Positions 32,657 to 47,405 of a stretch of DNA of 64,000 bases are shown here, one piece after another. The stretch comes from Microbacterium luticocti DSM 19459 (GTDB lineage Bacteria; Actinomycetota; Actinomycetes; Actinomycetales; Microbacteriaceae). The notes beneath the pieces are model-generated. The model did not search any database, was not told the origin of the DNA, and saw only the letters and a list, made by a program, of their open reading frames with translations. Numbering within the stretch: the stretch's first letter is position 1; each line of letters starts with the position of its first letter. Both the position numbers and the translations under genes were made by a program. The stretch is taken from contig NZ_AULS01000008.1 in the NCBI RefSeq assembly GCF_000422405.1, forward strand, positions 62,001 through 126,000. The letters are read 5' to 3'.

Positions 32657-33441
32657 CCGCGGCCGCGGTGCGGGTGCGGGGTCTGCGGTTCGCGTACCCG
32701 GGGGCCGACACCCCGGTGCTCGACGGCGTGGACCTCGACATCGCGCCCGGTGAGCGGGTCGCCGTGCTCGGGCCGAACGGCGCGGGCAAGACCACGCTCA
32801 TGCTGCACCTGAACGGCATCAACCGGCCGCTGGCGGGCACCGTCACGATCGGCGACGACGTCGTGGACGCCGCCACCGTGCGCGAAGTGCGTCGTCGGGT
32901 CGGCATCGTGTTCCAAGACCCCGACGACCAGCTGTTCATGCCGACGGTCGGCGAGGACGTCGCCTTCGGGCCGGCGAACTTCGGCGTACCCCCCGACGAA
33001 CTCCCCCGCCGCGTGCACACCGCCCTGGCACGGGTCGGGCTGCCCGACGCGGCCGGCCGCGCACCGCAGCACCTCTCCCTCGGTCAGCGCCGCCGCGCGG
33101 CGATCGCCACGATCCTGTCGATGGACGTCGACGTGATCGTGCTCGACGAGCCCACCTCGAACCTCGACCCGGCATCGCGCCGCGAACTGTCGGCGGCCCT
33201 CGGCGATCTGGAGTGCACCCTCGTCGTGGTCACCCACGATCTGCCGTACGCGCTGGAGCTGTGCGAACGGTCGGTGATCCTCAACGGCGGCCGCATCGTC
33301 GCCGACGGGCCGACCCGTGACATCCTGGCCGATGCCGCGCTGCTGGCCGCGCACGGGCTGGAACTGCCGTGGGGGTTCGACCCGCACCGGGCACCGACGC
33401 TGCGCGAGCGGAGTCAGGTGCGCCGCAGCGACGTCACGTAG
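32653..33441 (+). CDS. nikO: Energy-coupling transporter ATPase (CbiO/NikO)
   Basis: 262 aa ABC ATPase. Walker A is GPNGAGKTT (near residue 40), the Q-loop is in GIVFQDPDDQLF, Walker B is VIVLDEPTSNLDP and the switch His is in VVTHD. The ABC signature reads LSLGQRRRAAIA, with Leu-Gly where most have Gly-Gly, a variation found in other CbiO-type ATPases. It powers nickel/cobalt uptake with the three preceding subunits. Its last 28 bases overlap the 3' end of the convergent urea transporter gene. Confidence 0.93.
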   Translation: MTAAAVRVRGLRFAYPGADTPVLDGVDLDIAPGERVAVLGPNGAGKTTLMLHLNGINRPLAGTVTIGDDVVDAATVREVRRRVGIVFQDPDDQLFMPTVGEDVAFGPANFGVPPDELPRRVHTALARVGLPDAAGRAPQHLSLGQRRRAAIATILSMDVDVIVLDEPTSNLDPASRRELSAALGDLECTLVVVTHDLPYALELCERSVILNGGRIVADGPTRDILADAALLAAHGLELPWGFDPHRAPTLRERSQVRRSDVT

Positions 33442-34337
33442 AAGGCGATGATCAGCGCCGCCCAGGTGGTGAGGATGTACGGCCAGGTGTAGGTGACAAG
33501 GCCCGCGCGGTGCATGAGCACGGTGACCACCGCGGTGATCACGATCCACGGCAGGCTGTACAGCCACGAGGCGCGCGAAGCCGTCACGAACGTGACGGTC
33601 AGCGCGATCGCGGTGAGCACCCCGGAGTAGTTCGCCAGGCCGTTCGCGATCTCGCTCCACGGCTCGCCCATTGCCATCGCGGTGAGCGAGCCGAGCGCGC
33701 TGCCCAGCACCGCCGCCAGGCCCACCTTCCAGCTCGCGATGAACAGGCCGAGCAGGATGAGCGCCCCCGAGAACACGTTGTCGACGAGCACCACCTGCGA
33801 CACGTTGGTCAGCAGCGAGGTGAAGAAGGCGGCCACCGGCTGATCGGGCAGGTGCGAGGCCGGTGCCGGCACGGCCAGGCGCAGCGTCGAGACCGTGATG
33901 ACGGTGGCGGTGATGCAGAACGGCGCGGTCGTGTACGGCAGCTCGAAGCGCTTCAGCGCGGGCGACGCGAACAGCTTCACGATCACCCAGGTCACCGGCC
34001 CGGTGACCAGTCCCCCGAGGAACGCCAGCAGATAGCACCACCATCCGTTGCCGCCCAGTGCCGCGAACACCGCGGCGCCGACGAGTGTGCCGCAGAACGA
34101 CTGCATGCCGGCGGCGATGTTCGCCAGGCCATTGCCGCAGGCCCGGCCGCCCAGCATCCCGCCGACCCCGCCGATCACGGCCAACACAGCCATGCGCCAG
34201 TCGGCGACGACGAAGGCGGCCAAGATCAGGATGCCGCAGGCCCAGTTGGTCTGGAAGTAGATCTGCGATGCACCGTTCAGCACGCCGACGCCCCACTGCG
34301 CGAGCGGTGTCGCGGTGCGCGCCCCTGCGGTCGTCAT
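33414..34337 (-). CDS. Urea transporter (UT family)
   Basis: 307 aa with about ten membrane segments in two similar halves, as in bacterial urea channels. Helpful stretches are LNGASQIYFQTNWACGILIL and LTNVSQVVLVDNVFSGALIL, the paired half-signatures, plus LPYTTAPFCITATVI after the first half. It lets urea enter down its gradient to feed urease. It is the last gene of the urease operon, 23 bp after ureD, and its 3' end overlaps the nickel transporter ATPase gene by 28 bp. I recognise the family but not a specific named gene. Confidence 0.85.
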   Translation of the reverse strand: MTTAGARTATPLAQWGVGVLNGASQIYFQTNWACGILILAAFVVADWRMAVLAVIGGVGGMLGGRACGNGLANIAAGMQSFCGTLVGAAVFAALGGNGWWCYLLAFLGGLVTGPVTWVIVKLFASPALKRFELPYTTAPFCITATVITVSTLRLAVPAPASHLPDQPVAAFFTSLLTNVSQVVLVDNVFSGALILLGLFIASWKVGLAAVLGSALGSLTAMAMGEPWSEIANGLANYSGVLTAIALTVTFVTASRASWLYSLPWIVITAVVTVLMHRAGLVTYTWPYILTTWAALIIAFYVTSLRRT

Positions 34338-34360: not shown

Positions 34361-35344
34361 TCAGTACTTTCTGATGTGCGGCGCGGGCAGCCCGGTGAGC
34401 AGCTCGTGCACGGCGGCCGCGGCGGCCGTGTTCACCCGGGTCGAGAGCACGGTGTCATCGCCGACCCAGCGCAGCCACGCACCGGCGTCATCCGGCAGGA
34501 TGCTCACGCCGAACCGGGCGCTGTCATCGTCCGCGGCGGCACAGACCGCCGTGACGGTCTCGTGCAGCACCTCGGCGATACGCGCCGCCGGAACCCGATC
34601 GGTGACCACGTACAGCGACGCCACCACGTCGCGGCCGCCGAGCACCGCGGCACCGCCGACATGGCCGTCGCGCGGCACCAGCCGCACCCGGTCGAACGCC
34701 ACCGGCGTGCCGTCGGGCCGTCGCACCTCGAAGTCGCTCGCATACGCGGCGTAGGCGTTCCGCTCCCCGCGCGAGAGCCGGCCGGCATAGATCGTCTCGC
34801 CCGCGACCAGGGTGGCCGACTCATCCAGTCGCACGGTCGTGCGCTGATAGAACCGGGAGTCGACGTACGGGATGATCGGGTCGGGCAAGTATTCCACGTA
34901 CGCGCCCGCCTCGATCTCCAGCCCGGCGAGCGCCGTCGCGTAGCCGGACTCCATGCGGTACACCTTGGTGTGCGCCTGGGTGGTCACGTGCGCTGCGGTG
35001 CCGGGGCCGAAACGCAGGTCCATGCGCTGCCGGTCGTTGTGCAGGATGCCCCCGCCCGTGGTGATCAGGTAGGTGTACGGCACGTCGGGGCGGTGCGGGT
35101 CGAAGTACAGCGGCTTCATGATCTGCAACGGGGACTTCTGGAAGTGCCCCACCAGCTCGGTGCGCCGGGCGTCACCTTCCCCGCGCAGCTCGAAGTCCAG
35201 CTCGAGGATGCCCACCTTGCCGGGGCTGCCCACCGGCAGGGTGTCGGGCTGCGTGCCGTACCGCGCGACCTCGATCGGCACATGCGCCGGCTCGAAGTGC
35301 GCCGGCTGCAGCCGCGGTCCGCCGTACGGCTCGGTCTGTGTCAC
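34361..35344 (-). CDS. ureD: Urease accessory protein UreD
   Basis: 327 aa. UreD (UreH) forms the UreDFG activation complex on apo-urease and has a tunnel for nickel delivery. The body is beta-rich, with typical stretches FQKSPLQIMKPLYFDP, YTYLITTGGGILHNDRQRM and VTTQAHTKVYRM. The start is a GTG at 35344 that overlaps the ureG stop (GTGA). Its position after ureG and before the urea transporter is normal for actinobacterial urease operons. Confidence 0.94.
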   Translation of the reverse strand: MTQTEPYGGPRLQPAHFEPAHVPIEVARYGTQPDTLPVGSPGKVGILELDFELRGEGDARRTELVGHFQKSPLQIMKPLYFDPHRPDVPYTYLITTGGGILHNDRQRMDLRFGPGTAAHVTTQAHTKVYRMESGYATALAGLEIEAGAYVEYLPDPIIPYVDSRFYQRTTVRLDESATLVAGETIYAGRLSRGERNAYAAYASDFEVRRPDGTPVAFDRVRLVPRDGHVGGAAVLGGRDVVASLYVVTDRVPAARIAEVLHETVTAVCAAADDDSARFGVSILPDDAGAWLRWVGDDTVLSTRVNTAAAAAVHELLTGLPAPHIRKY

Positions 35345-35976
35345 GCGACCAGCTCTCCGCGGCGCTGCGCCCACACCGCCATGATGGTGTCGAACAGCTC
35401 CTGCACGCCGACGCCTTCGAGCGAGTTGGTCATCACGACCGGCTTGTCGCCGCGCACGGCGTGCGCGTCGCGTTCCATCACCGCCAGGTCGGTGCGCACG
35501 TACTGGGCGATGTCGATCTTGTTGATCACGAGGATGTCGCTGTCGGTGATCCCCGGGCCGCGCTTGCGCGGCATCTTCTCGCCCTCCGAGGTGTCGAGCA
35601 CGAACACGAACACATCGGCCAGCGACGGCGAGAAGGTGAGGGTGAGGTTGTCGCCGCCGGACTCGTAGATGATCGTGTCGATCTCGGGAAACCGCTCCAC
35701 GAGCTCTTCGCCGGCGGCGAGGTTCATGGTGGGGTCGTCGCGGACCGCGGTGTGCGGGCAGGCGCCGGTCTCGACCCCCACCACCCGCTCCGGGTCGAGG
35801 ATGCCGGCAAGCTCCCGCCGCACATGGTGGGCGTCCTCCTGGGTGTAGATGTCGTTGGTGATCACGCCCGGGGTGCGCCCGGCGGCGATGAACACCGGCA
35901 CCAGCGCCTCGGTCAGCGCGGTCTTTCCCGAGCCGACCGGCCCGCCGATGCCCACGCGCAGCACGTTGTGGTCCAT
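35341..35976 (-). CDS. ureG: Urease accessory GTPase UreG
   Basis: 211 aa. The P-loop GPVGSGKT is at residues 12-19, and the conserved metal site is in GVETGACPHTAVRDD (Cys-Pro-His). It also has GDNLTLTFSPSLAD and the NKID base-recognition motif. GTP hydrolysis by UreG drives nickel transfer into the active site. There is no histidine-rich N-terminus, unlike mycobacterial and plant UreG; a histidine-rich tail is found instead on the CbiX-like protein of this operon. Confidence 0.97.
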   Translation of the reverse strand: MDHNVLRVGIGGPVGSGKTALTEALVPVFIAAGRTPGVITNDIYTQEDAHHVRRELAGILDPERVVGVETGACPHTAVRDDPTMNLAAGEELVERFPEIDTIIYESGGDNLTLTFSPSLADVFVFVLDTSEGEKMPRKRGPGITDSDILVINKIDIAQYVRTDLAVMERDAHAVRGDKPVVMTNSLEGVGVQELFDTIMAVWAQRRGELVA

Positions 35977-35989
35977 ATGTGTTCCTTCC

Positions 35990-36690
35990 TCAACTCGTGA
36001 ACAGTCGGGCCTCGGCGCGTTCGTGCGCCGCCGACATGATGTCGCCCGTCGGCGCGAAACCGCCGATGTCTTCCACCGGCCGCACCAGGGCGTCTTCAGT
36101 GACCGCCATGATGACCGGCTGCGCCCGGCGCAGGATCACCTGCGTGGACCGGTGATCGGTCAGCCGCAGCCGCAGTGCGGCGCCGGCGAAGCTGGTGGCG
36201 AACGCGAACAGATCGGATGCCACGGCCTGCGCCGTCGGCACCCCGGTGGCCGCGTACACCACGGCCGAGACCACCGCCTGGCATCCCGGGGTCTGCCGAG
36301 CCTTGACCCGCGCCGCCCACGCCGCGATGTCGTCACCACCGAACACCTCGGCGGCGATGTCGGCGACCTGCCGGCCGCTGCGCACGCTGGAGCGGCGCAG
36401 CTCGGCGTTCAGCTTCGAGGCGTACAACAGGCGGTCGATCTCGGCGACCGACTCCCAGTCCCCGCGAGCGGCGGCCTGGTGGGCCCGGGCGAGCGCGGTC
36501 GCGTCGCCCGGGCCGACGGTGGCCGTCAGCATGTCGTCGAGCAGATCGCCGATCGTGCCCGCGTCGACCAGTCCCGCCTGCGCGAACCCCTCGAGCCCGT
36601 GCGACATCGTGTAGAAGCCGCTCGGGAACGCCGAATCGCTCAGCTGCAGGCTGACCAGCAGGGCCGCCGGGTCGAACCGCTCCGACGTCG

Positions 36691-36694
<4 letters not shown>
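35990..36694 (-). CDS. ureF: Urease accessory protein UreF
   Basis: 234 aa, all-helical. UreF bridges UreD and UreG and controls UreG GTPase. Recognisable parts are [20 protein letters not shown] near the N-terminus, [15 protein letters not shown] and the C-terminal [17 protein letters not shown]. Its ATG overlaps the ureC stop. It keeps the conserved Ser-Gly-rich N-terminal helix, so it should be functional. Confidence 0.94.
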
Positions 36695-38415
<1,721 letters not shown>

Positions 38416-38417
38416 GA

Positions 38418-38843
38418 TTACTTGCTCCCCTTCTTCGCGGCCGCGGCCGGGGTCTTGCCCCGCGCGGGCGCACCGTTCTCGAATCCGCGTTCGGCGAGCA
38501 GTCGCATCGCCGCGGCCTTGGTGGCGGGGGCGTCCAACCCGCCGCTGACCAGACCGTTGAAGCCGATCAGATGCCGGGCGCCGCCGTAGGCGACCAGTGT
38601 CACTTCCTTGGTCTCGCCGGGCTCGAACCGCACCCCGGTGCCGGCGGGGATGTCCAGGTGCATGCCCCAGGCCTTCTCGCGCTCGAAGCGCATGGCGCGG
38701 TTGACCTCGAAGAAGTGGAAGTGCGAGCCGATCTGCACGGGCCGGTCACCGGTGTTGGTGACCCGCAGCGTGACCGAATCGCGACCCGCGTTGATCTCGA
38801 TGGTGTCGGCGCCGTGATGCACCTTCGCCTTCCTGCTGGCCAT
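38418..38843 (-). CDS. ureB: Urease beta subunit
   Basis: 141 aa, with the family core in residues ~1-105 ([51 protein letters not shown]). A C-terminal Ala/Lys/Gly-rich tail ([12 protein letters not shown]) extends past the usual end. GGGAGGAA precedes the ATG at 38843. It lies between a CbiX-like chelatase gene and ureC, an interruption of the normal ureA-ureB adjacency. Confidence 0.96.
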
Positions 38844-38857
38844 GATGTTCCTCCCGC

Positions 38858-39736
38858 TCAGTGGTGGTCGTCGTGTGCGGTGCTGCCGTGCACCGCGTGC
38901 TCTGCCGCGCGGCCGTGGCCGTGCGCGTGGTGATGGTGGTGACCGTGACCGTGGGTGTGGGGGTGCGACCCGGATGCCTCCTCGAAGGCGTGCGAGTGCG
39001 CGTAGCCGTGTCCGTGGTCGGCGTCCAGCCCCGCCGCGATGCCGTCGTCGCCGTGGCCGCGCAGCGCGTGCAACGCATCGTGCACGCGGTCGCGCACCTG
39101 CCGGGTGATCGCGGTGTCGCTCATCAGCGGGCCGACGTCGGCGACCCGGCACACCGGGATCTCGGCCGCGAACCCCGCCGGCACCCCCGCCACGGTCTGC
39201 GCGCCGAGCCGGCGCATCCGCTCGGCGGCCGCCTCGAGCTCATCGGCGTCGTCGGCCAGTGCCGCCTCCACGTTCGCGATGCCGCCGTGGGTGCGCACCA
39301 GGTGCGCGATGCGGAACAGCTCGGCTTCGTCGAACGGGTCGGAGTGGGCCCCGACGATCAGCAGCGCGTCGGCGTCGTGCCGGGCGACGGCGCGGTGGGC
39401 GGCGGTGCGCAGCCACGCGATCAGGTGGTCGGGCTGGCCGAACGGCGCCGCGAACGCGAGGCGCCCGGGGTGCTTGGCCGCCAGCCACGCCGCCGTCTTG
39501 GCGGCGTCGGCGACCATGGTCGGGTTGCGTCCGAACGTCATCGGCACGACGACGACCTCGCCGCCGGCCGTCAGTGACTGCTCGATCAGATCGTGCAACC
39601 GGCGACCGGTCGCGCAGGCCACAGCATCCGGAATGCGTGCACACAGCCGCTGCAGCTGCGCGCCGTCGCCACTCTCGTGACCGCCGACGAGCACGGTGCG
39701 CGCAGGTGCGGCGGGTGCGGGCGGGTGGGATGACAC
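38858..39736 (-). CDS. CbiX-like metallochelatase with histidine-rich tail, inserted between ureA and ureB
   Basis: 292 aa, GTG start. The first ~235 residues look like a two-part CbiX/sirohydrochlorin-chelatase fold: [35 protein letters not shown] and [20 protein letters not shown]. The last ~55 residues contain 20 histidines in short runs ([15 protein letters not shown]), a nickel-buffer type sequence. The operon has no ureE, the usual nickel chaperone, and UreG lacks a His-rich stretch. A role in storing or delivering nickel to urease is likely by context; a porphyrinoid chelatase role is less likely, as no tetrapyrrole genes are near. Confidence 0.8.
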
Positions 39737-39740
39737 CGGG

Positions 39741-40046
39741 TCAGCCGCCGATCGGGTCGTGGCACGAGATCAGCTTGGTGCCGTCGGGGAAGGTGGCTTC
39801 CACCTGCAGCAGCGTGACCCGTTCGCGTACGCCGGGCATGCAGTCGGCCTCGGCCACGACCTTCTTGCCCAGGGCCATGCACTCGGCGACCGACTTGCCG
39901 TCACGCGCGGCCTCGAGGATCGCCTCGGTGACCAGCGCCTGCGCCTCGCTGACGTTCAGTTTCGTGCCCCGCTCGCGTCGCCGACGGGCGAGCTCGGCGA
40001 CCTGATAGACGTACAGCTTGTCGATTTCACGCGGAGTGAGGTCCAT
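39741..40046 (-). CDS. ureA: Urease gamma subunit
   Basis: 101 aa, full length. Family stretches MDLTPREIDKLYVYQVAELA, LNVSEAQALVTEAILEAARD and MPGVRERVTLLQVEATFPDG are all present. It is the smallest urease structural subunit and the first gene of the minus-strand urease operon. About 230 bp of shared intergenic DNA separate it from a divergent MFS gene; an inverted GTGCC-GGCAC pair (40082-40105) lies there. Confidence 0.97.
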   Translation of the reverse strand: MDLTPREIDKLYVYQVAELARRRRERGTKLNVSEAQALVTEAILEAARDGKSVAECMALGKKVVAEADCMPGVRERVTLLQVEATFPDGTKLISCHDPIGG

Positions 40047-40276: not shown

Positions 40277-41698
40277 ATGACCCGGCGTGCCACCGGTGTG
40301 GGCGCCCCGGCACCTGCCGGTCTGGGGCTGCGCCTGGTGCTCGCCTGCTGCCTGGCCCAGTTCGTGCACACCGCGTACGGCAGCGTCGTCACCATCGCCC
40401 TGCCCGACATCGCCGGCCGGCTGCACGCGGGCATGGGCGCGCTGCAGTGGCTGCAGGCCGCGTACATCCTGCCACTGGCGGCACTGCTGACCTTCTCGGG
40501 CACCCTCGCCGACCGGTGGGGGCGGCGCCGGGTGCTGCTGTGCGGCACCGCGATCATGACCGCCGGGTCGCTGCTGTGCGCGCTGAGCCCGTCGGTGTGG
40601 ATGCTCGTGGCCGGGCGCGCGGTGCAGGGCGTCGGCTCGGCGATGGTCGCCCCGGCCGGGCTGTCGCTGCTGACGGCGGCGGCGCCGAAGGCGGGCCGGG
40701 CGGTGGCGGTCATGTGGTGGAGCACGGTGGGCACCGCGTCGCTGGCGGCGGCGCCGATCCTCGGCGGGCTGCTTGTGCGGGCGGCCGGGTGGCCGTCGCT
40801 GTTCTGGGCGGGGGTCGTGCTCGGCGTGCTCACGGCGGTGCTGGTGCTGGTGTTCGTGCCCGAATCGCACTCGGACGCCCCGGAACGGTTCGACCCGCTC
40901 GGCCAGACCCTGCTCACCCTGGGTCTGGCCGCCGTGACGTTCGTGCTCATCGAGGGCCCCCACCTGGGCTGGGTGTCTCTCGCCGTGCTGGTCGCGATGG
41001 TCGTCGCCGTGGCCGCCGGCGCGGGGCTGGTGCGCTCCGAGCGCGACCACCCGCATCCGGTCGTGCCGTTGCGGCTGCTGCGCACCCGGGCGTTCGTGGT
41101 GGCACTGACCACCGCGGTGCTCGGCTATCTGGCCCTGGCCGGACTGCTGTTCGTGAACACGTTCGCGCTGCAGTCCGAACGCGGGCTCGACGCGATCGGC
41201 GCGGGGCTGGCGACCATTCCGCTGGCGGCCGGGGCGACCCTGTCGGCGGTGTTCGCGGCGCGGCTGGTGGGCGAAGGCAGATCACGGCCGGCGCTGATGC
41301 TGGCCGGGACGCTGATCGCGGCGGGATCGCTCGCACTGTGGGCGACCGAGCACGCGCCGCTGTGGACGGTGCTGGTCCCGTCGCTGGTGTTCGGGCTCGG
41401 GTTCGGGCTGATCCCCGACCCGATCAGCGTGACCGCGCTGGCCGCACTCGACGAGTCCGAGGCGGGGCTGGCGTCGAGCCTGATCTCGACGTCGAAGCAG
41501 GTCGGGCAGATGCTCGGCGTGGCCCTGGTGGGCATGCTGCTGGCGGTGTCGGCCACCGGTGACCCCGCCGCCGAGTTCGACGACATGGGCGGGTGGGTGT
41601 GGATGCTGCTGGCGGTGGCCGGCGTCGTGATCGTGCTGGTGAACGGCCTGGAGCACCGGCGCGCGCGGCGGCAGGCTACAGGCCGCGGCCGAGCATGA
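40277..41698 (+). CDS. DHA2-family MFS efflux transporter
   Basis: 473 aa with about 14 predicted membrane segments. Motif A is in LADRWGRRRVLL, motif C appears in APILGGLLVRAAGW, and the N-terminal helix contains VVTIALPDIAGRLHAG, typical of EmrB/QacA/Stp-like drug:proton antiporters. It is leadered, with TATAGT and GGGAGGTG upstream. Its last 23 bases overlap the 3' end of the convergent CrcB gene. It is divergent from ureA. The substrate is unknown. Confidence 0.88.
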   Translation: MTRRATGVGAPAPAGLGLRLVLACCLAQFVHTAYGSVVTIALPDIAGRLHAGMGALQWLQAAYILPLAALLTFSGTLADRWGRRRVLLCGTAIMTAGSLLCALSPSVWMLVAGRAVQGVGSAMVAPAGLSLLTAAAPKAGRAVAVMWWSTVGTASLAAAPILGGLLVRAAGWPSLFWAGVVLGVLTAVLVLVFVPESHSDAPERFDPLGQTLLTLGLAAVTFVLIEGPHLGWVSLAVLVAMVVAVAAGAGLVRSERDHPHPVVPLRLLRTRAFVVALTTAVLGYLALAGLLFVNTFALQSERGLDAIGAGLATIPLAAGATLSAVFAARLVGEGRSRPALMLAGTLIAAGSLALWATEHAPLWTVLVPSLVFGLGFGLIPDPISVTALAALDESEAGLASSLISTSKQVGQMLGVALVGMLLAVSATGDPAAEFDDMGGWVWMLLAVAGVVIVLVNGLEHRRARRQATGRGRA

Positions 41699-42053
41699 GC
41701 CCGAGCCAGGCGCCGAGCACCGTGAGCACCAGCATCCCGATGCTGTTGCCGAGTGCGAGAGAGAACTTCTGCTTCTGCAGCATGTGCACGGTGTCGACCA
41801 TCGCGGTGCTGAAGGTGGTGTAGCCGCCCATGCAGCCCACGCCCAGCACCTGCATCCACTGCGCGTCCAGCACCGACGAGTCGGCCATGCCGGTGAGAAA
41901 CCCCAGCAGGATCGCGCCGCTCGTGTTGATGACGAACGTGCCCCACGGGTAGGTGCCGCCGGCCCGGCGCATGATGATGCCGTCGAGGGTGAACCGCACC
42001 GATGCGCCCACTCCCCCGCCGACGGCGATCAGCAGGAACAGTCCGGGGTTCAT
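41676..42053 (-). CDS. crcB: Fluoride ion channel CrcB (Fluc), subunit 2
   Basis: 125 aa with four transmembrane segments. The channel signature is clear: GGGVGASVRFTLD, GTFVINTSGAILLGFLTG and GVGCMGGYTTFSTAMVDT (the Gly-Gly-x-Thr-Thr-Phe-Ser track). Fluc proteins form antiparallel dimers that export fluoride. It is paired with a second CrcB gene whose stop overlaps its ATG, suggesting an obligate heterodimer as in other Gram-positive bacteria. Confidence 0.93.
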   Translation of the reverse strand: MNPGLFLLIAVGGGVGASVRFTLDGIIMRRAGGTYPWGTFVINTSGAILLGFLTGMADSSVLDAQWMQVLGVGCMGGYTTFSTAMVDTVHMLQKQKFSLALGNSIGMLVLTVLGAWLGLMLGRGL

Positions 42054-42523
42054 GCGTGCACCGTGCTCAGGTCGACGCGGCGGTGCACGAGGGCTTTGGC
42101 CGCGATCACGCCGATGCCGGCGCAGGCGACGCCGCCGAGAACCGTCAGGAGCGCAAAGCTGATCGCGAGTACCGGGTCGGTGCCGAAGATGACGGCGGAA
42201 TCGCTGGCCAGCTCGCTGTAGGTGGTGAACCCGCCCATGATGCCGGTGCCGGCGAACAGCCGGACGTCGCGTCGGGCGTCGGTCTCGGGGGTGCGCACGG
42301 CGAGCGCGGTGAGCAGAAAGCCCAGCACGAGCGCGCCGCACAGGTTCACGACGAGGATCGTCCACGGCACGGTTCCGGTCCACGGGAACGCGAACGCGAG
42401 CACCGCACGGATGGCCGTGCCGACCGCCCCGCCGACGAAGACGAACAGGATCAGCTTGGGGTGCAGCGCCACCGGCCGATGGTGACGGCGCCGATTGTCA
42501 CGCTGGTGTTCGACGAGGGTCAT
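42050..42523 (-). CDS. crcB: Fluoride ion channel CrcB (Fluc), subunit 1
   Basis: 157 aa. Four transmembrane helices follow a basic 25-residue N-terminus (QRDNRRRHHR). Signature stretches are VGGAVGTAIRAVLAF, ILVVNLCGALVLGFLLTAL and GIMGGFTTYSELASDS (here Thr-Thr-Tyr-Ser). The ATG at 42523 has AAGGAGAG upstream. It is translated with the second CrcB by ATGA overlap. No fluoride riboswitch consensus is seen in the leader; a strong hairpin is there instead. Confidence 0.92.
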   Translation of the reverse strand: MTLVEHQRDNRRRHHRPVALHPKLILFVFVGGAVGTAIRAVLAFAFPWTGTVPWTILVVNLCGALVLGFLLTALAVRTPETDARRDVRLFAGTGIMGGFTTYSELASDSAVIFGTDPVLAISFALLTVLGGVACAGIGVIAAKALVHRRVDLSTVHA

Positions 42524-42649: not shown

Positions 42650-44128
42650 TCAGTGCGGCGCGTGCGCCTGCAGGAACTCGTACACGTCGGTGGTGTCGAC
42701 CCCGGGAAAAGCCCCGGTCGGCAGGGTCGCCAAGAGCGTGCGCGGCGTCTTCACATTGGGCCAGGCGTTGTCGCGCCATGCCTGCTCGAGCTCGGCCGGC
42801 GCCCGCCGGCAGCACACCTCGGTGGCGTGCTTCGACACGGCGCGGTTGGTGGTGTCACGGCCGAGGAACCACTTGGTGTCGTCGAAGCGCACGCCCACGC
42901 TCACCGAGTGCGCGCCCTCGCTGGAGTTCTCGACCCGGGCGGTGCACCAGTAGGTGCCGTTGCCGGTGTCGGTGTACTGGTAGTACGGGTTGAAGTGGTC
43001 GTCGACGTCGAACACGACACGGCTGGTCCAGGTGCGGCAGCACATCTGTCCCTCGATGGCGCCCAGCCGGTCGGCGGGGAAGTTCACGTCGTCGTTCTCG
43101 TACGCCTTGGTGATCGTGCCGGATTCGTGCACCTTGAGGAAGTGCACCCGGATCCCGAGGTGCCGGGTGGCGAGGTTCGTGAACCGGTGTGCGGCCGTCT
43201 CGTACGACACCGAGTAGGCGTCGCGCAGGTCTTCGATCGAGATCGCCCGGTCCTTCTTCGCGTCCTGCAGGAACGGCACGGCGTGCGACTCGGGGATCAG
43301 CAGCGCCCCGGTGAGGTAGTTGGTCTCCACCCGCTGACGCAGGAACTCGGCGTAGCTGGCCGGTTCGCCGTGGCCGAGGATGCGGCTGCACAGCGCCTGC
43401 AGCACCGCTGTGCGCGGATCGCCCTTGGCGGTCAGCCGGCTCGACAGGTACAGCCGGCCGTGCTTGAGGTCGGCGACCGAGCGGGTGGTCTGCGGCAGGT
43501 CGGGCACGTAGTGCAGCGTGAAGCCGAGGTGCGCGGCGATGTCGGACGCGGTGCGCTGGGTGAGCGGCCCGCCGGGGTGGTCGACCGCCTTCAGGATGCG
43601 CTGGGCCTGCTGCTCGAGCTCGGGAAAGTGGTTGTCCTGCGTGCGCATCAGCCGCCGCAGCGCCACGTTCGCCCGGCGGGCCTCTTCGGGGGTCGCCGCA
43701 CGCTCGTCGCGCAGCCGTTCGATCTCGCCCTGCAGCGCCAGCAGGGCGTCGAGCACCTCGTCCGACAGCGAGCGCGGGATCCGGAACGGCTCGATCCCCA
43801 GCGACCGGAAGGTCGGCCCCTTCATGGCCCGTTCGAGCGCCACCTCGCGCTGCGCGCGCTCGTCCAGCGGCTCGGACTCCAGCAGCGCGTCCAGCGTGGT
43901 GCCGAGGGCCCGCGCGATCGACTGCAGCAGCGTCAGCTTGGGCTCGCGCCGTCCGTTCTCGATCATCGACAGCTGGCTCGGCGCGCGCGACACCGCCGCG
44001 GCCAGCTCTTCGAGCCGCATCCCGCGCGCGGTGCGCAGCTGCCGGATGCGCCGGCCGATGGTGAGGGTGTCCACCTCTTCATCGTCGACGGCAGCGGTCG
44101 CGTTTTCGAGGGCGAGCAGGTCGTTCAT
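42650..44128 (-). CDS. ramB: RamB-type regulator of acetate/glyoxylate metabolism
   Basis: 492 aa. An N-terminal XRE helix-turn-helix (IGRRIRQLRTARGMRLEEL through SQLSMIENGRREPKL, residues ~24-65) is followed by an ImmA/IrrE-like central domain and a cysteine-containing C-terminal short-chain-acyl sensor domain (GQMCCRTW, TEVCCRRAP). This is the layout of Corynebacterium RamB and mycobacterial Rv0465c, which control isocitrate lyase and malate synthase. It is divergent from aceA, with a 28-bp perfect palindrome between them. Activator or repressor action cannot be decided from sequence. Confidence 0.88.
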   Translation of the reverse strand: MNDLLALENATAAVDDEEVDTLTIGRRIRQLRTARGMRLEELAAAVSRAPSQLSMIENGRREPKLTLLQSIARALGTTLDALLESEPLDERAQREVALERAMKGPTFRSLGIEPFRIPRSLSDEVLDALLALQGEIERLRDERAATPEEARRANVALRRLMRTQDNHFPELEQQAQRILKAVDHPGGPLTQRTASDIAAHLGFTLHYVPDLPQTTRSVADLKHGRLYLSSRLTAKGDPRTAVLQALCSRILGHGEPASYAEFLRQRVETNYLTGALLIPESHAVPFLQDAKKDRAISIEDLRDAYSVSYETAAHRFTNLATRHLGIRVHFLKVHESGTITKAYENDDVNFPADRLGAIEGQMCCRTWTSRVVFDVDDHFNPYYQYTDTGNGTYWCTARVENSSEGAHSVSVGVRFDDTKWFLGRDTTNRAVSKHATEVCCRRAPAELEQAWRDNAWPNVKTPRTLLATLPTGAFPGVDTTDVYEFLQAHAPH

Positions 44129-44152
44129 CCGGCGATGATCTCACGAGAACAG

Positions 44153-44180
44153 AAATCCGGCAAAACTTCACGCCGGATTT
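44153..44180. promoter_or_regulatory. 28-bp palindrome between ramB and aceA (candidate RamB operator)
   Basis: AAATCCGGC (44153-44161), spacer AAAACTTCAC, GCCGGATTT (44172-44180): a perfect 9-bp inverted repeat in a locally AT-richer stretch. It is 25 bases from the ramB start and 85 from aceA. The spacer word GCAAAACTT resembles part of the known RamB motif of Corynebacterium. Confidence 0.65.
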
Positions 44181-44264
44181 GGTCGTGGATACCGCAGCAC
44201 TTCACTCAGAGTGGATGTCACAGCCCGGGCCCACCGCCCCGGCCGACCCCCGAAGGAGAACGCC

Positions 44265-45575
44265 ATGACCCCCACGCCATCCGCCGCCCCCCTCCGCGCC
44301 GGCGACCAGGTCCAGACCGCGGCCGAGCTCCAGGAGATCTGGGACACCGACCCGCGGTGGGACGGCCTCGAGCGCACCTACACCGCCGAGGACGTCATCC
44401 GGCTGCGCGGCACTGTCCGCGAAGAGAACACGCTCGCCCGCCGCGGCGCCGAGAGCCTGTGGAACCTCATCCACACCGAGGAGTACGTGCGGGCACTGGG
44501 CGCGTACACCGGCGGCCAGGCCGTGCAGCAGGTGCGCGCCGGGCTGAAGGCGATCTACCTGTCGGGCTGGCAGGTCGCCGCCGACGGCAACCTCGCCGGC
44601 CAGACCTACCCCGACCAGTCGCTGTACCCGGCCAACTCGGTGCCGGCGGTGGTGCGACGTATCAACAACGCGCTGCTGCGGCAGGACCAGCTCGAGCACG
44701 CCGAGGGCCGTGTCACCCGGGACTGGCTGGCCCCGATCGTCGCCGATGCCGAGGCCGGGTTCGGCGGACCGCTGAACGCCTACGAACTGGCCCAGTCGAT
44801 GATCCAGGCCGGAGCCGCCGGCATCCACTGGGAGGACCAGCTGGCCAGCGAGAAGAAGTGCGGTCACCTGGGCGGGAAGGTGCTGGTGCCCACCCAGCAG
44901 CACATCCGCACCCTGAACGCGGCGCGGCTGGCCGCCGACGTCGCGGGCGTTCCCACCGTCATGATCGCCCGCACCGACGCCCTGGCCGCCGACCTCATCA
45001 CCAGCGACGTCGACGAGCGCGACCGCGGGTTCCTCACCGGTGAGCGCACCACCGAGGGCTTCTACCGGGTGCGCCCGGGCATCGAGCCGGTGATCGCCCG
45101 CGGGCTCGCGTTCGCCCCGTACGCCGACCTGCTGTGGGTCGAGACCGGCGAGCCCGACATCGAGCTGGCCCGCGAGTTCGCGAACGCCGTCCACGCCGAG
45201 TTCCCGGGCAAGAAGCTCGCCTACAACTGCTCGCCGAGCTTCAACTGGAAGCGGCACCTGGACGACGCCCAGATCGCCACCTTCCAGGACGAGCTGGCCG
45301 ACCTCGGCTACGCCTTCCAGTTCATCACGCTGGCCGGCTTCCACGCCCTGAACCACTCGATGTTCGACCTCGCCCGCGGGTACGCGCAGCGCGCCATGAG
45401 CGCCTACGTCGACCTGCAGGAGGCCGAGTTCGCCGCCGAGGCCGACGGCTACACCGCCACCAAGCACCAACGCGAGGCGGGCACCGGCTACTTCGACGCC
45501 GTCTCGACGGCGCTCAACCCCGCCAGTGCCACCCTCGCCCTGGCCGGCTCCACCGAGGCCGCCCAGTTCCACTAG
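44265..45575 (+). CDS. aceA: Isocitrate lyase
   Basis: 436 aa. It splits isocitrate into glyoxylate and succinate, the first step of the glyoxylate shunt needed for growth on acetate or fatty acids. The active-site loop [11 protein letters not shown] (catalytic Cys) is intact, with [17 protein letters not shown] and the metal/substrate region [20 protein letters not shown] typical of the family. The ATG at 44265 has GAAGGAG well placed; an upstream in-frame ATG is not used. It is followed by a hairpin terminator and then aceB. Confidence 0.97.
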
Positions 45576-45599
45576 ACCGACCGGCGAACCCCCGGTCCC

Positions 45600-45639
45600 G
45601 GATGCCTCGGCCCACCGAATCCCTCGGGCCGAGGCATCC
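45600..45639 (+). terminator. Terminator after aceA
   Basis: GGATGCCTCGGCCC pairs perfectly with GGGCCGAGGCATCC (14-bp stem, 12-base loop), 25 bases after the aceA stop. The following CCCCCTTTCCC is a weak T-tract. It probably separates aceA and aceB transcription, at least in part. Confidence 0.7.
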
Positions 45640-45657
45640 ACCCCCTTTCCCTACGCG

Positions 45658-45724
45658 GTTCGGGGCGTATTCGTGCCTCAGATCACGCCCATATCCGCCC
45701 CGAACGCACATATCCGCCCCGAAC
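45658..45724. promoter_or_regulatory. Three GTTCGGGGCG boxes upstream of aceB
   Basis: A 16-bp direct repeat CATATCCGCCCCGAAC occurs at 45690-45705 and 45709-45724 (19-bp period). An inverted copy of its core, GTTCGGGGCG, is at 45658-45667. All lie between the aceA terminator and the aceB ribosome site. They are candidate binding sites for a regulator of malate synthase. Confidence 0.6.
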
Positions 45725-45752
45725 CGGGCTCACAGACAGACAAGGAACCATC

Positions 45753-47405
45753 ATGACCATCACCCTGGGCACGGTGCCGACCACCGGCCCGATCACGACC
45801 CACCGACCGACCATCGAGGTGACCGGCCCGATCCGTGAGAGGTACGACGAGATCCTGACGCCTGCGGCGTTGGAGTTCCTCACCGCACTGCACCACCGCT
45901 TCGCCGGGCGCCGCCACGACCTCCTGGCCGAGCGGATGCGCCGCCAGTTCGAGATCGGCAACGGCCACGACCCGCACTTCCGCGCCGACACCGCGCACAT
46001 CCGCGACGACCCGCACTGGCGGGTCGCCGGCGCCGCACCGGGCCTGCAGGACCGCCGCGTCGAGATCACCGGGCCCACCGACCCGAAGATGACCATCAAC
46101 GCGCTGAACTCGGGCGCGCGGGTGTGGCTGGCCGACCAAGAGGATGCCACCAGCCCCACGTGGGGCAACGTGATCGGCGGCCAGCTGTCGCTGTTCGACG
46201 CGATCCGCGGGCAGTTGACGTTCACCAACGACGCGGGCAAGCGGTACGAGGTGACCGCCGAGCGCACGCCGACGATCGTGATGCGCCCACGCGGCTGGCA
46301 CCTGGTCGAAGAGCACATCCGGTTCACCGACCGCACCGGGCGCACCATGGCGGCATCCGGCTCGCTGGTCGACTTCGGCCTGTACTTCTTCCACAACGCA
46401 CAGGCGCTGATCGACAGCGGCACCGGACCGTACTTCTACCTGCCGAAGCTGGAGAGCTCCGAAGAGGCGAAGCTGTGGGACGACGTGTTCACGTTCAGCG
46501 AGCGTGCCCTGCACATCCCGCACGGCACGATCCGGGCGACCGTGCTGATCGAGACGCTGCCGGCGGCGTTCGAGATGGAGGAGATCCTGTTCCAGCTGCG
46601 CGACCACTGCGCGGGCCTGAACGCGGGCCGGTGGGACTACATCTTCTCGATCATCAAGAACTACCGCGGCCGCGGCGCCCGGTTCGTGCTGCCCGACCGG
46701 AGCGAGGTGACCATGACCGTACCGTTCATGCGCGCCTACACCGAGCTGCTGGTCAAGACCTGCCACCGCCGCGGCGCGTTCGCGATCGGCGGGATGAGCG
46801 CGTTCATCCCCAACCGGCGCGACCCGGAGGTGACCGCTCAGGCGCTGGAGAAGGTGGCCGCCGACAAGAAGCGCGAGGCCGGCGACGGATTCGACGGCAC
46901 CTGGGTGGCGCACCCCGATCTGATCCCGGCGGCGCAGGCCGAGTTCGACGCGGTGCTGGGCGAGAGACCGAACCAGATCGACCGGCAGCGCGACGACGTC
47001 GAGGTGACGGCGGCCCAGCTGCTGGATCTGCGCATCGGCCGCCCGATCACCGAGGCCGGCGTGCAGGGCAACGTGTCGGTGGCGATCCGGTACATCGAGG
47101 CGTGGCTGCGCGGCCAGGGCGCGGTGGCGATCGACAACCTGATGGAGGATGCGGCGACCGCCGAGATCTCGCGGTCGCAGATCTGGCAGTGGATCCATCA
47201 GGACCGCTCCACCGCCGAGGGCACCGCGATCACCCGCGAGTACGTCGAAGGACTCATCGGCGAGGTGCTGGAGACGGTGGACCGGTTCGACGGCGACCGG
47301 TTCGACGACGCCGCCGCCGTGTTCCGCGAGGTCTCGCTGCGCGAGGAGTTCCCGGCGTTCCTGACCCAGGACGCCTACTCGCGGTACCTGGTCGAGCGCG
47401 ACTGA
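45753..47405 (+). CDS. aceB: Malate synthase A
   Basis: 550 aa, the length of the A isoform rather than the ~720-aa GlcB. It condenses glyoxylate with acetyl-CoA to malate. Typical stretches are ARVWLADQEDATSPTWGN, RPRGWHLVEEH, LNAGRWDYIFSIIKNYR, SAFIPNRRDP and DGFDGTWVAHPDLIP. The ATG has AAGGAACC upstream. With aceA it forms the complete glyoxylate shunt. Confidence 0.97.
   Translation: MTITLGTVPTTGPITTHRPTIEVTGPIRERYDEILTPAALEFLTALHHRFAGRRHDLLAERMRRQFEIGNGHDPHFRADTAHIRDDPHWRVAGAAPGLQDRRVEITGPTDPKMTINALNSGARVWLADQEDATSPTWGNVIGGQLSLFDAIRGQLTFTNDAGKRYEVTAERTPTIVMRPRGWHLVEEHIRFTDRTGRTMAASGSLVDFGLYFFHNAQALIDSGTGPYFYLPKLESSEEAKLWDDVFTFSERALHIPHGTIRATVLIETLPAAFEMEEILFQLRDHCAGLNAGRWDYIFSIIKNYRGRGARFVLPDRSEVTMTVPFMRAYTELLVKTCHRRGAFAIGGMSAFIPNRRDPEVTAQALEKVAADKKREAGDGFDGTWVAHPDLIPAAQAEFDAVLGERPNQIDRQRDDVEVTAAQLLDLRIGRPITEAGVQGNVSVAIRYIEAWLRGQGAVAIDNLMEDAATAEISRSQIWQWIHQDRSTAEGTAITREYVEGLIGEVLETVDRFDGDRFDDAAAVFREVSLREEFPAFLTQDAYSRYLVERD

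Follow-up and report, generated by a model that had tools for sequence, protein, structure and literature searches.

Organization of the urease operon

The window analysed here is a 64,000-nucleotide stretch of the Microbacterium luticocti DSM 19459 genome (contig NZ_AULS01000008.1, positions 62,001 to 126,000 of the forward strand). It contains a tightly packed urease operon in the order ureA-X-ureB-ureC-ureF-ureG-ureD, followed by a gene for a urea transporter of the UT family. X, the subject of this report, starts with a GTG codon 4 nt after the ureA stop, and its own stop lies 14 nt before the ureB start. Pfam names all six ure neighbours of X, and NCBIfam also names ureA, ureB, ureC and ureG. 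The features are as follows (window coordinates):

39741..40046, minus strand: ureA, urease gamma subunit (Pfam PF00547, E 2.6e-40; NCBIfam PRK13241 over cut-off)
38858..39736, minus strand: X, protein of 292 aa with a predicted chelatase fold and a His-rich tail (ORF, family alignment, fold, and CbiX homology of the family)
39020..39736, minus strand: X core, residues 1-239, two CbiX-like lobes with conserved H20, E21, R45, R70, H104, R110 and F135
38861..39019, minus strand: X tail, residues 240-292, 20 His in 53 residues, opening with a conserved 10-residue motif
38418..38843, minus strand: ureB, urease beta subunit (PF00699, E 7e-43)
36691..38415, minus strand: ureC, urease alpha subunit of the X-type clade (TIGR01792 over cut-off; tree)
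35990..36694, minus strand: ureF (PF01730, E 4.3e-33)
35341..35976, minus strand: ureG, without a His-rich N- or C-terminal extension (TIGR00101 over cut-off; termini read)
34361..35374, minus strand: ureD (PF01774, E 1.4e-49)
33414..34337, minus strand: urea transporter, UT family, directly past ureD (PF03253, E 6.8e-57)

Elsewhere in the window, a pair of neighbouring CrcB-family genes occupies 41676-42481 (minus strand), and the region 42650-47405 holds an HTH and M78-peptidase-like regulator divergent from isocitrate lyase- and malate synthase-like ORFs, the latter judged by eye. Upstream of ureA in five X-type loci (L003-L007) lie similar membrane-protein ORFs of 315-331 aa, which look FUSC-like by eye.

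Chelatase ancestry and predicted fold of the X core

With the window X as query, neither Pfam nor NCBIfam gave a match at E<=1. Among the cores of the 33 family members, 19 match the CbiX family PF01903 at E<=1, with a best value of 1.3e-5; the window member is among those unmatched. A search of 393 genomes of the class with the core profile ranked five X proteins first; of the 31 weaker places, the eight that were checked are all CbiX by Pfam. Six proteins drawn from these eight were compared with the X profile (33 rows) by hhalign, yielding a probability of 97.6 and an E value of 3.2e-12 over 199 columns. X is thus, by profile comparison, a remote homologue of CbiX.

The AlphaFold2 model of the core, built from 33 sequences, has a mean pLDDT of 96.0 and a pTM of 0.90. 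The top nine Foldseek matches of this model are SirB and CbiK, with a best E value of 7.8e-5. In the VIA search, the first 45 rows are chelatases or chelatase-like proteins with Z scores of 10.2-13.4, the next row having a Z of 9.2; they include SirB, CbiK, CpfC/HemH, human and yeast ferrochelatase, CbiX, FetB and DR2241. The best VIA match is SirB, with a Z of 13.4 and an rmsd of 5.1 Å over 219 residues. An earlier model from seven sequences, with the tail included, is in agreement (best Z 12.2). Judged from the model, the core is a class II chelatase fold of two lobes. When the PDB was searched by sequence with the core or its profile, we took all the matches for chance ones, the best being designed TIM barrels, and a defence function was set aside as the PADLOC scan of the core gave no match. 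Two actinobacterial CbiX proteins by Pfam (L067 and L081) carry a CDTC motif together with a His-rich C-terminus, and might represent the ancestor type of X.

Catalytic residues and the sirohydrochlorin pathway

The His pair of class II chelatases has been described as His10/His74 in CbiX-small of A. fulgidus and His14/His79 in CbiX-long of B. megaterium (PMC7689651), and the metal ligands of SirB as His10, Glu43 and His76 (PMC11301274). The first catalytic histidine, H20, is retained in 32 of the 33 X members, its register having been set by eye from the alignments. At the second position of the N-lobe, T73, which hhalign aligns to the His of the GHAKGD motif of CbiX, a histidine is found in none of the 33; likewise, no member has a histidine at the position of the first His in the C-lobe (G129). 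Invariant in all 33 members are G19, E21, G69, R70, R110, F135 and R142. The most divergent member, from Corynebacterium halotolerans (L061:7938-8849), is without H20 and R45 and has a long HGHSHS tail; the UreG of this locus has an N-terminus of 22 residues with two His. The N-lobe His pair is intact in three and broken in three of the six Pfam CbiX comparators, so that its loss is a softer mark and alone not decisive. Within a set of four Pfam-named CbiX proteins (L069, L072, L076 and L079), one or both N-lobe catalytic histidines are lost in the last three. Judged by such CbiX proteins with lost histidines, degenerate chelatases may be commoner in this actinobacterial class.

SUMT, the starter enzyme of sirohydrochlorin synthesis (TIGR01469, E<=1e-5), was present in 24 of the 36 genomes that carry X and undetected in 12; four of these 12 are at least 99% complete, and no completeness is given for the other eight. 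Over all 36, completeness is not given for 26, where absences are less sure. The 12 without detected SUMT include the window's own genome, which is 99.97% complete. A CbiX other than X was found in the same 24 genomes as SUMT and was undetected in the same 12, and in one genome (G696) the sole PF01903 match is X itself. A function as sirohydrochlorin chelatase was rejected on SUMT being undetected in 12 genomes, the separate CbiX in the others and the lost catalytic histidines, and X is probably not a working chelatase, as far as these comparisons tell. The earlier note on this DNA had likened the core to sirohydrochlorin chelatases; the likeness holds for ancestry and fold but probably not for the chemistry, with the two-His site broken and SUMT undetected in 12 of the 36 genomes.

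The His-rich tail

The last 53 residues of the window X contain 20 histidines, in line with the 20 that the earlier note had counted in the C-terminal 55 or so residues. Even if the His frequency of the core is taken as the expectation, the binomial probability of this is about 2e-12. The 10-residue motif that opens the tail is exact in 27 of the 33 members, occurs as a close variant in five and is unmatched in one. Such a conserved opening suggests a role beyond bulk histidine. In addition, H247 in the tail is kept in 33/33 members, while tail length ranges from 17 to 82 residues. The dN/dS values of six pairs of X are 0.19-0.37 for the core and 0.24-0.52 for the tail, by which selection on X is judged to be purifying; conservation and dN/dS together rule out a chance or misplaced ORF.

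His tails have been reported to be dispensable in two related settings, for nickel delivery by UreE of K. aerogenes (PMC7055735) and for cobalt insertion by CbiXL of B. megaterium (PMC7689651). A His tail is therefore no proof of function, and a function predicted from His tails alone is weakened. By analogy with these dispensable tails, the core of X is perhaps more important than its tail.

Distribution of X and its link to urease

A scan of genome contigs with two peptide patterns taken from X detected at least 28 X loci. The families concerned are Microbacteriaceae, Cellulomonadaceae, Micrococcaceae, Nocardiaceae, Nocardioidaceae, Catenulisporaceae, Corynebacteriaceae and others. Together with six loci from the family search, the scan gave 34 loci (32 distinct, with two repeats), in all of which X lies between ureA and ureB. 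The full order ureAXBCFGD is found in 33 of them, the remaining one ending at a contig edge. The class scan returned four X loci, one of them a repeat, all four in the same slot, and the plasmid collection added a Streptomyces operon of the same order with X between ureA and ureB. A plasmid of Embleya sp. NBC_00896 (NZ_CP108777.1, L161) has a decayed operon, in which X and ureB survive beside a ureA remnant; ureC was undetected within 12.6 kb. The total, with the window, is 38 distinct places, 37 of them between ureA and ureB and the 38th being the decayed operon. The earlier note had remarked that the gene splits ureA from ureB and had proposed a survey of the ureA-chelatase-ureB order. The split is confirmed in the window, and the order turned out to be conserved in 37 distinct operons.

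Among 299 genomes of the family, 24 have ureC. Seven of these encode a UreC 77-100% identical to that of the window, and they are exactly the same seven that have a strong X, whereas no X is found in the remaining 17, whose UreC identities are 50-60%. X therefore follows one urease lineage. A further 20 places gave weak matches in the family search, with E from 1e-3 to 3e-6; reading the ORFs at L014 and L019 showed that neither of these two is X. Two X-bearing genomes, G401 and G195, encode an additional urease of another type (UreG termini were read for G401), so that X is not the sole nickel route of those cells.

Likely alternative nickel modules

Among nickel carriers for urease, UreE is the best known. 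Neither UreE_N nor UreE_C was found over cut-off in any of the 36 X genomes, whereas three of three controls were positive; sub-cut-off matches in four X genomes (E 0.006-0.009) were taken as noise. The lack of ureE stated in the earlier note thus extends to the whole window genome, and the frequent co-occurrence with ureE that it had named as contrary evidence was seen in 0/36. However, a survey of the class found UreE_N over cut-off in eight of 393 genomes as against a ureC match in 173 (145 over the curated cut-off). As UreE is this rare across the class, a missing ureE is weak evidence by itself, and we dropped the stand-alone argument that X must be present because UreE is missing. Away from ureC, UreE_N-like ORFs also occur at L096 and L097 (genomes G531 and G639), as UreE-like proteins outside urease operons.

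The informative part is the contrast in UreG. The 173 genomes of the class that match ureC contributed 59 places to the comparison, hand-picked for genus spread, and the UreG sample covered 36 distinct X operons, seven with ureE and 48 with neither; UreG was located in 35, seven and 43 of them, respectively, being undetected in one X locus and five loci of the neither type. Histidines were counted in the residues before the P-loop plus the C-tail, from the nearest ATG in the main count; for L044, where UreG reads through an apparent frameshift, the C-tail count was put at 0 by hand. With a threshold of three terminal His, chosen after the data had been seen, His-rich UreG was found in 0/35 X operons, 0/7 UreE operons and 38/43 operons of the neither type. 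Taking the farthest start within 60 aa changed these counts to 3/35, 1/7 and 42/43. Accordingly, five of the 43 neither-type UreG proteins stay below three His with the cautious start, and one with the farthest.

The UreG of the window begins with MDHNVLRVGI, with one His, and has none in its C-tail, which bears out the earlier statement that a His-rich UreG is missing. X-type UreG proteins generally start with MSENVLRIGI or near to it, L057, L061 and L138 deviating more. Among the neither-type proteins, examples of the His-rich segments are MHLDHTHSGP (N-terminal) and PMAPHFHADGEEHTHDHDHGHPH (C-terminal). In the UreE-less loci L100-L157, the His-rich extension of UreG is N-terminal, C-terminal (often past DPGPMAPH) or, in a few, both. 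The other UreE-less operons thus mostly have a His-rich UreG and X operons do not.

HypA, which in H. pylori reportedly supplies UreE with nickel (PMC7055735), was present in four of the 36 X genomes and undetected in 32. With UreE, a His-rich UreG and mostly HypA absent, X is the sole recognised candidate for a nickel-binding module ahead of UreG in most X genomes. Each operon type, as read from the gene contents, likely has one nickel module, namely UreE, a His-rich UreG or X.

Putative nickel uptake genes

An ORF with the NiCoT signature (HAFDADHIAAIDNTT) is present in 13 of the 32 distinct X loci, a count based on the motif and not on a family search, and lies directly past ureD in 12 (loci L029-L060). 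In Humibacter (L036), the NiCoT-signature ORF is located about 5.5 kb upstream, and the window genome has one NicO transporter, on a different contig. NiCoT ORFs beside X operons make the nickel supply consistent with the role proposed below. On a Thermus thermophilus plasmid (NZ_LR027520.1, L162:3010-3639), the gap between ureA and ureB holds an ORF with the sequence LGLRHALEPDH, a NiCoT-like signature by eye. The slot in Thermus thus carries a different possible nickel gene.

History of the X-type operon

A tree of 95 UreC sequences, made by a quick method and rooted at the midpoint, places the 37 X rows in one group (SH-aLRT 99) and the 48 neither rows in another (100), the eight UreE rows falling on the same side of the root as the X rows (90). 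This tree rules out counting the 37 operons as 37 independent events. As X-type ureC is a single clade, the swap of UreE for X represents one event and the contrast in UreG only a few, and the association of X with missing UreE is one historical event that selection has kept and not repeated. The simplest account, on this tree, is the loss of ureE and the gain of X in one lineage: an operon of the order ureABCEFGD would have lost ureE, gained X between ureA and ureB, and later spread across many families.

Proposed role of X

Based on these comparisons, we propose that X is probably a urease maturation factor that replaces UreE in one actinobacterial operon lineage, serving as both a nickel store and a metallochaperone for UreG. 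The ancestor of X would have been a CbiX-like sirohydrochlorin chelatase of two lobes, in which the catalytic His pair was lost and a His-rich C-terminal tail was either retained or acquired. The tail would gather and store imported Ni2+. A tighter putative site in the old chelatase pocket, formed by H20, E21 and perhaps H104, would receive Ni2+ from the tail, and X would then play the part that UreE has in other operons by delivering it to UreG, here poor in His, within the UreD-UreF-UreG-apourease complex. What we infer is that the metal is nickel, that the pocket holds it, that X transfers it to UreG and that urease activity needs X. The reading in the earlier note, a repurposed chelatase supplying a missing nickel store or insertase, gains support on a comparative basis from the lack of UreE in 36 genomes and from the contrast in UreG.

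In its fullest form, the proposal holds that a tetrapyrrole metal-inserting enzyme was rebuilt as a protein-to-protein nickel carrier for one urease lineage, as a third independent solution, with the former pocket carrying Ni2+ to UreG; this we advance tentatively, as a real possibility falling a little short of an even chance. If true, it would clearly exemplify the conversion of a metal-inserting enzyme into a metal carrier. One His-rich nickel module per operon type also gives a simple testable rule for the nickel supply of UreE-less ureases. In addition, homology alone would name the X family a sirohydrochlorin chelatase, a function that 12 of the 36 sampled owners seemingly could not use.

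The same tail could belong to a mere nickel sponge or detoxifying buffer, which stores Ni2+ (or Zn2+ or Co2+) on a core serving as scaffold while UreG is loaded from the free pool. A tail that is always present, with H247 in every member, and yet varies so much in length would fit such a buffer, and two His-rich nickel-binding proteins have been described in Helicobacter (PMC4671568). However, purifying selection acts on the core about as strongly as on the tail, and the core's seven invariant residues exceed the needs of a scaffold, which makes the sponge unlikely. Less probable still is a role of X as partner of the urease subunits in structure or regulation, for instance as a chaperone or a metal sensor holding apourease, with no direct hand-over of nickel. 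In each of the 37 intact operons X is flanked by the genes of the two small structural subunits, which would suit such a partner, and the ligand of the invariant R70, R110 and R142 could be an anion and not a metal, whereas the conserved His tail and the complementarity with UreE and His-rich UreG point to metal handling. It is hardly credible that X is a working chelatase, acting on sirohydrochlorin or some other tetrapyrrole, and that its place in the urease operon is accidental: the fold, the CbiX homology, H20 in 32 of 33 members, the nickel chelation known for SirB and CfbA (PMC11301274) and the three comparators that also lack the N-lobe pair speak for it, but they are outweighed by the absence of His at the second N-lobe position and at the C-lobe G129 position in all 33, by SUMT undetected in 12 genomes and a separate CbiX in the 24 that have it, and by 37 of 38 places lying in a urease operon with the 38th beside the ureB of a decayed one.

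Comparison with known systems

The open-licence literature, judged by titles and the openings of abstracts, yielded no description of the X protein, though a mention inside the body of a paper is possible. A Frankia paper (PMC4531530) names CbiX among cobalt chaperones, with no urease link in the part concerned.

The proposed urease maturation factor resembles CbiX-long, SirB and CbiK (PF01903/PF06180) in that it is two-lobed, is their profile homologue and has the first catalytic His in 32 of the 33 members. A His-rich C-terminal region is also reported for CbiX-long of B. megaterium (PMC7689651) and is thus shared, whereas the 4Fe-4S centre of CbiX-long is not general in X, as 15 of the 33 members contain no Cys. 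Unlike class II chelatases, X is without the second His in 33/33 members, is tied to urease and occurs also in genomes with no detected substrate pathway.

Similar to UreE, X is encoded in the urease operon and is paired with a UreG without His extension; some UreE proteins likewise have a His-rich C-terminus, and both operon types fall on the same side of the UreC tree. X differs in having no PF02814 or PF05194 match at E<=1, with a predicted chelatase fold instead, and in its slot, which is between ureA and ureB, whereas UreE follows ureC in four of seven UreE operons and comes later in three. Operons with a His-rich UreG resemble those with X in supplying a His-rich segment where UreE is missing, but the segment is within UreG there and on a separate protein in X operons. 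CfbA, the nickel chelatase of coenzyme F430, shares with X the chelatase superfamily and, if our reading of X is right, nickel. However, CfbA is described as a homodimer with His9 and His75 in each subunit that acts on a tetrapyrrole (PMC11301274), whereas X combines two lobes in one chain and is without the second His.
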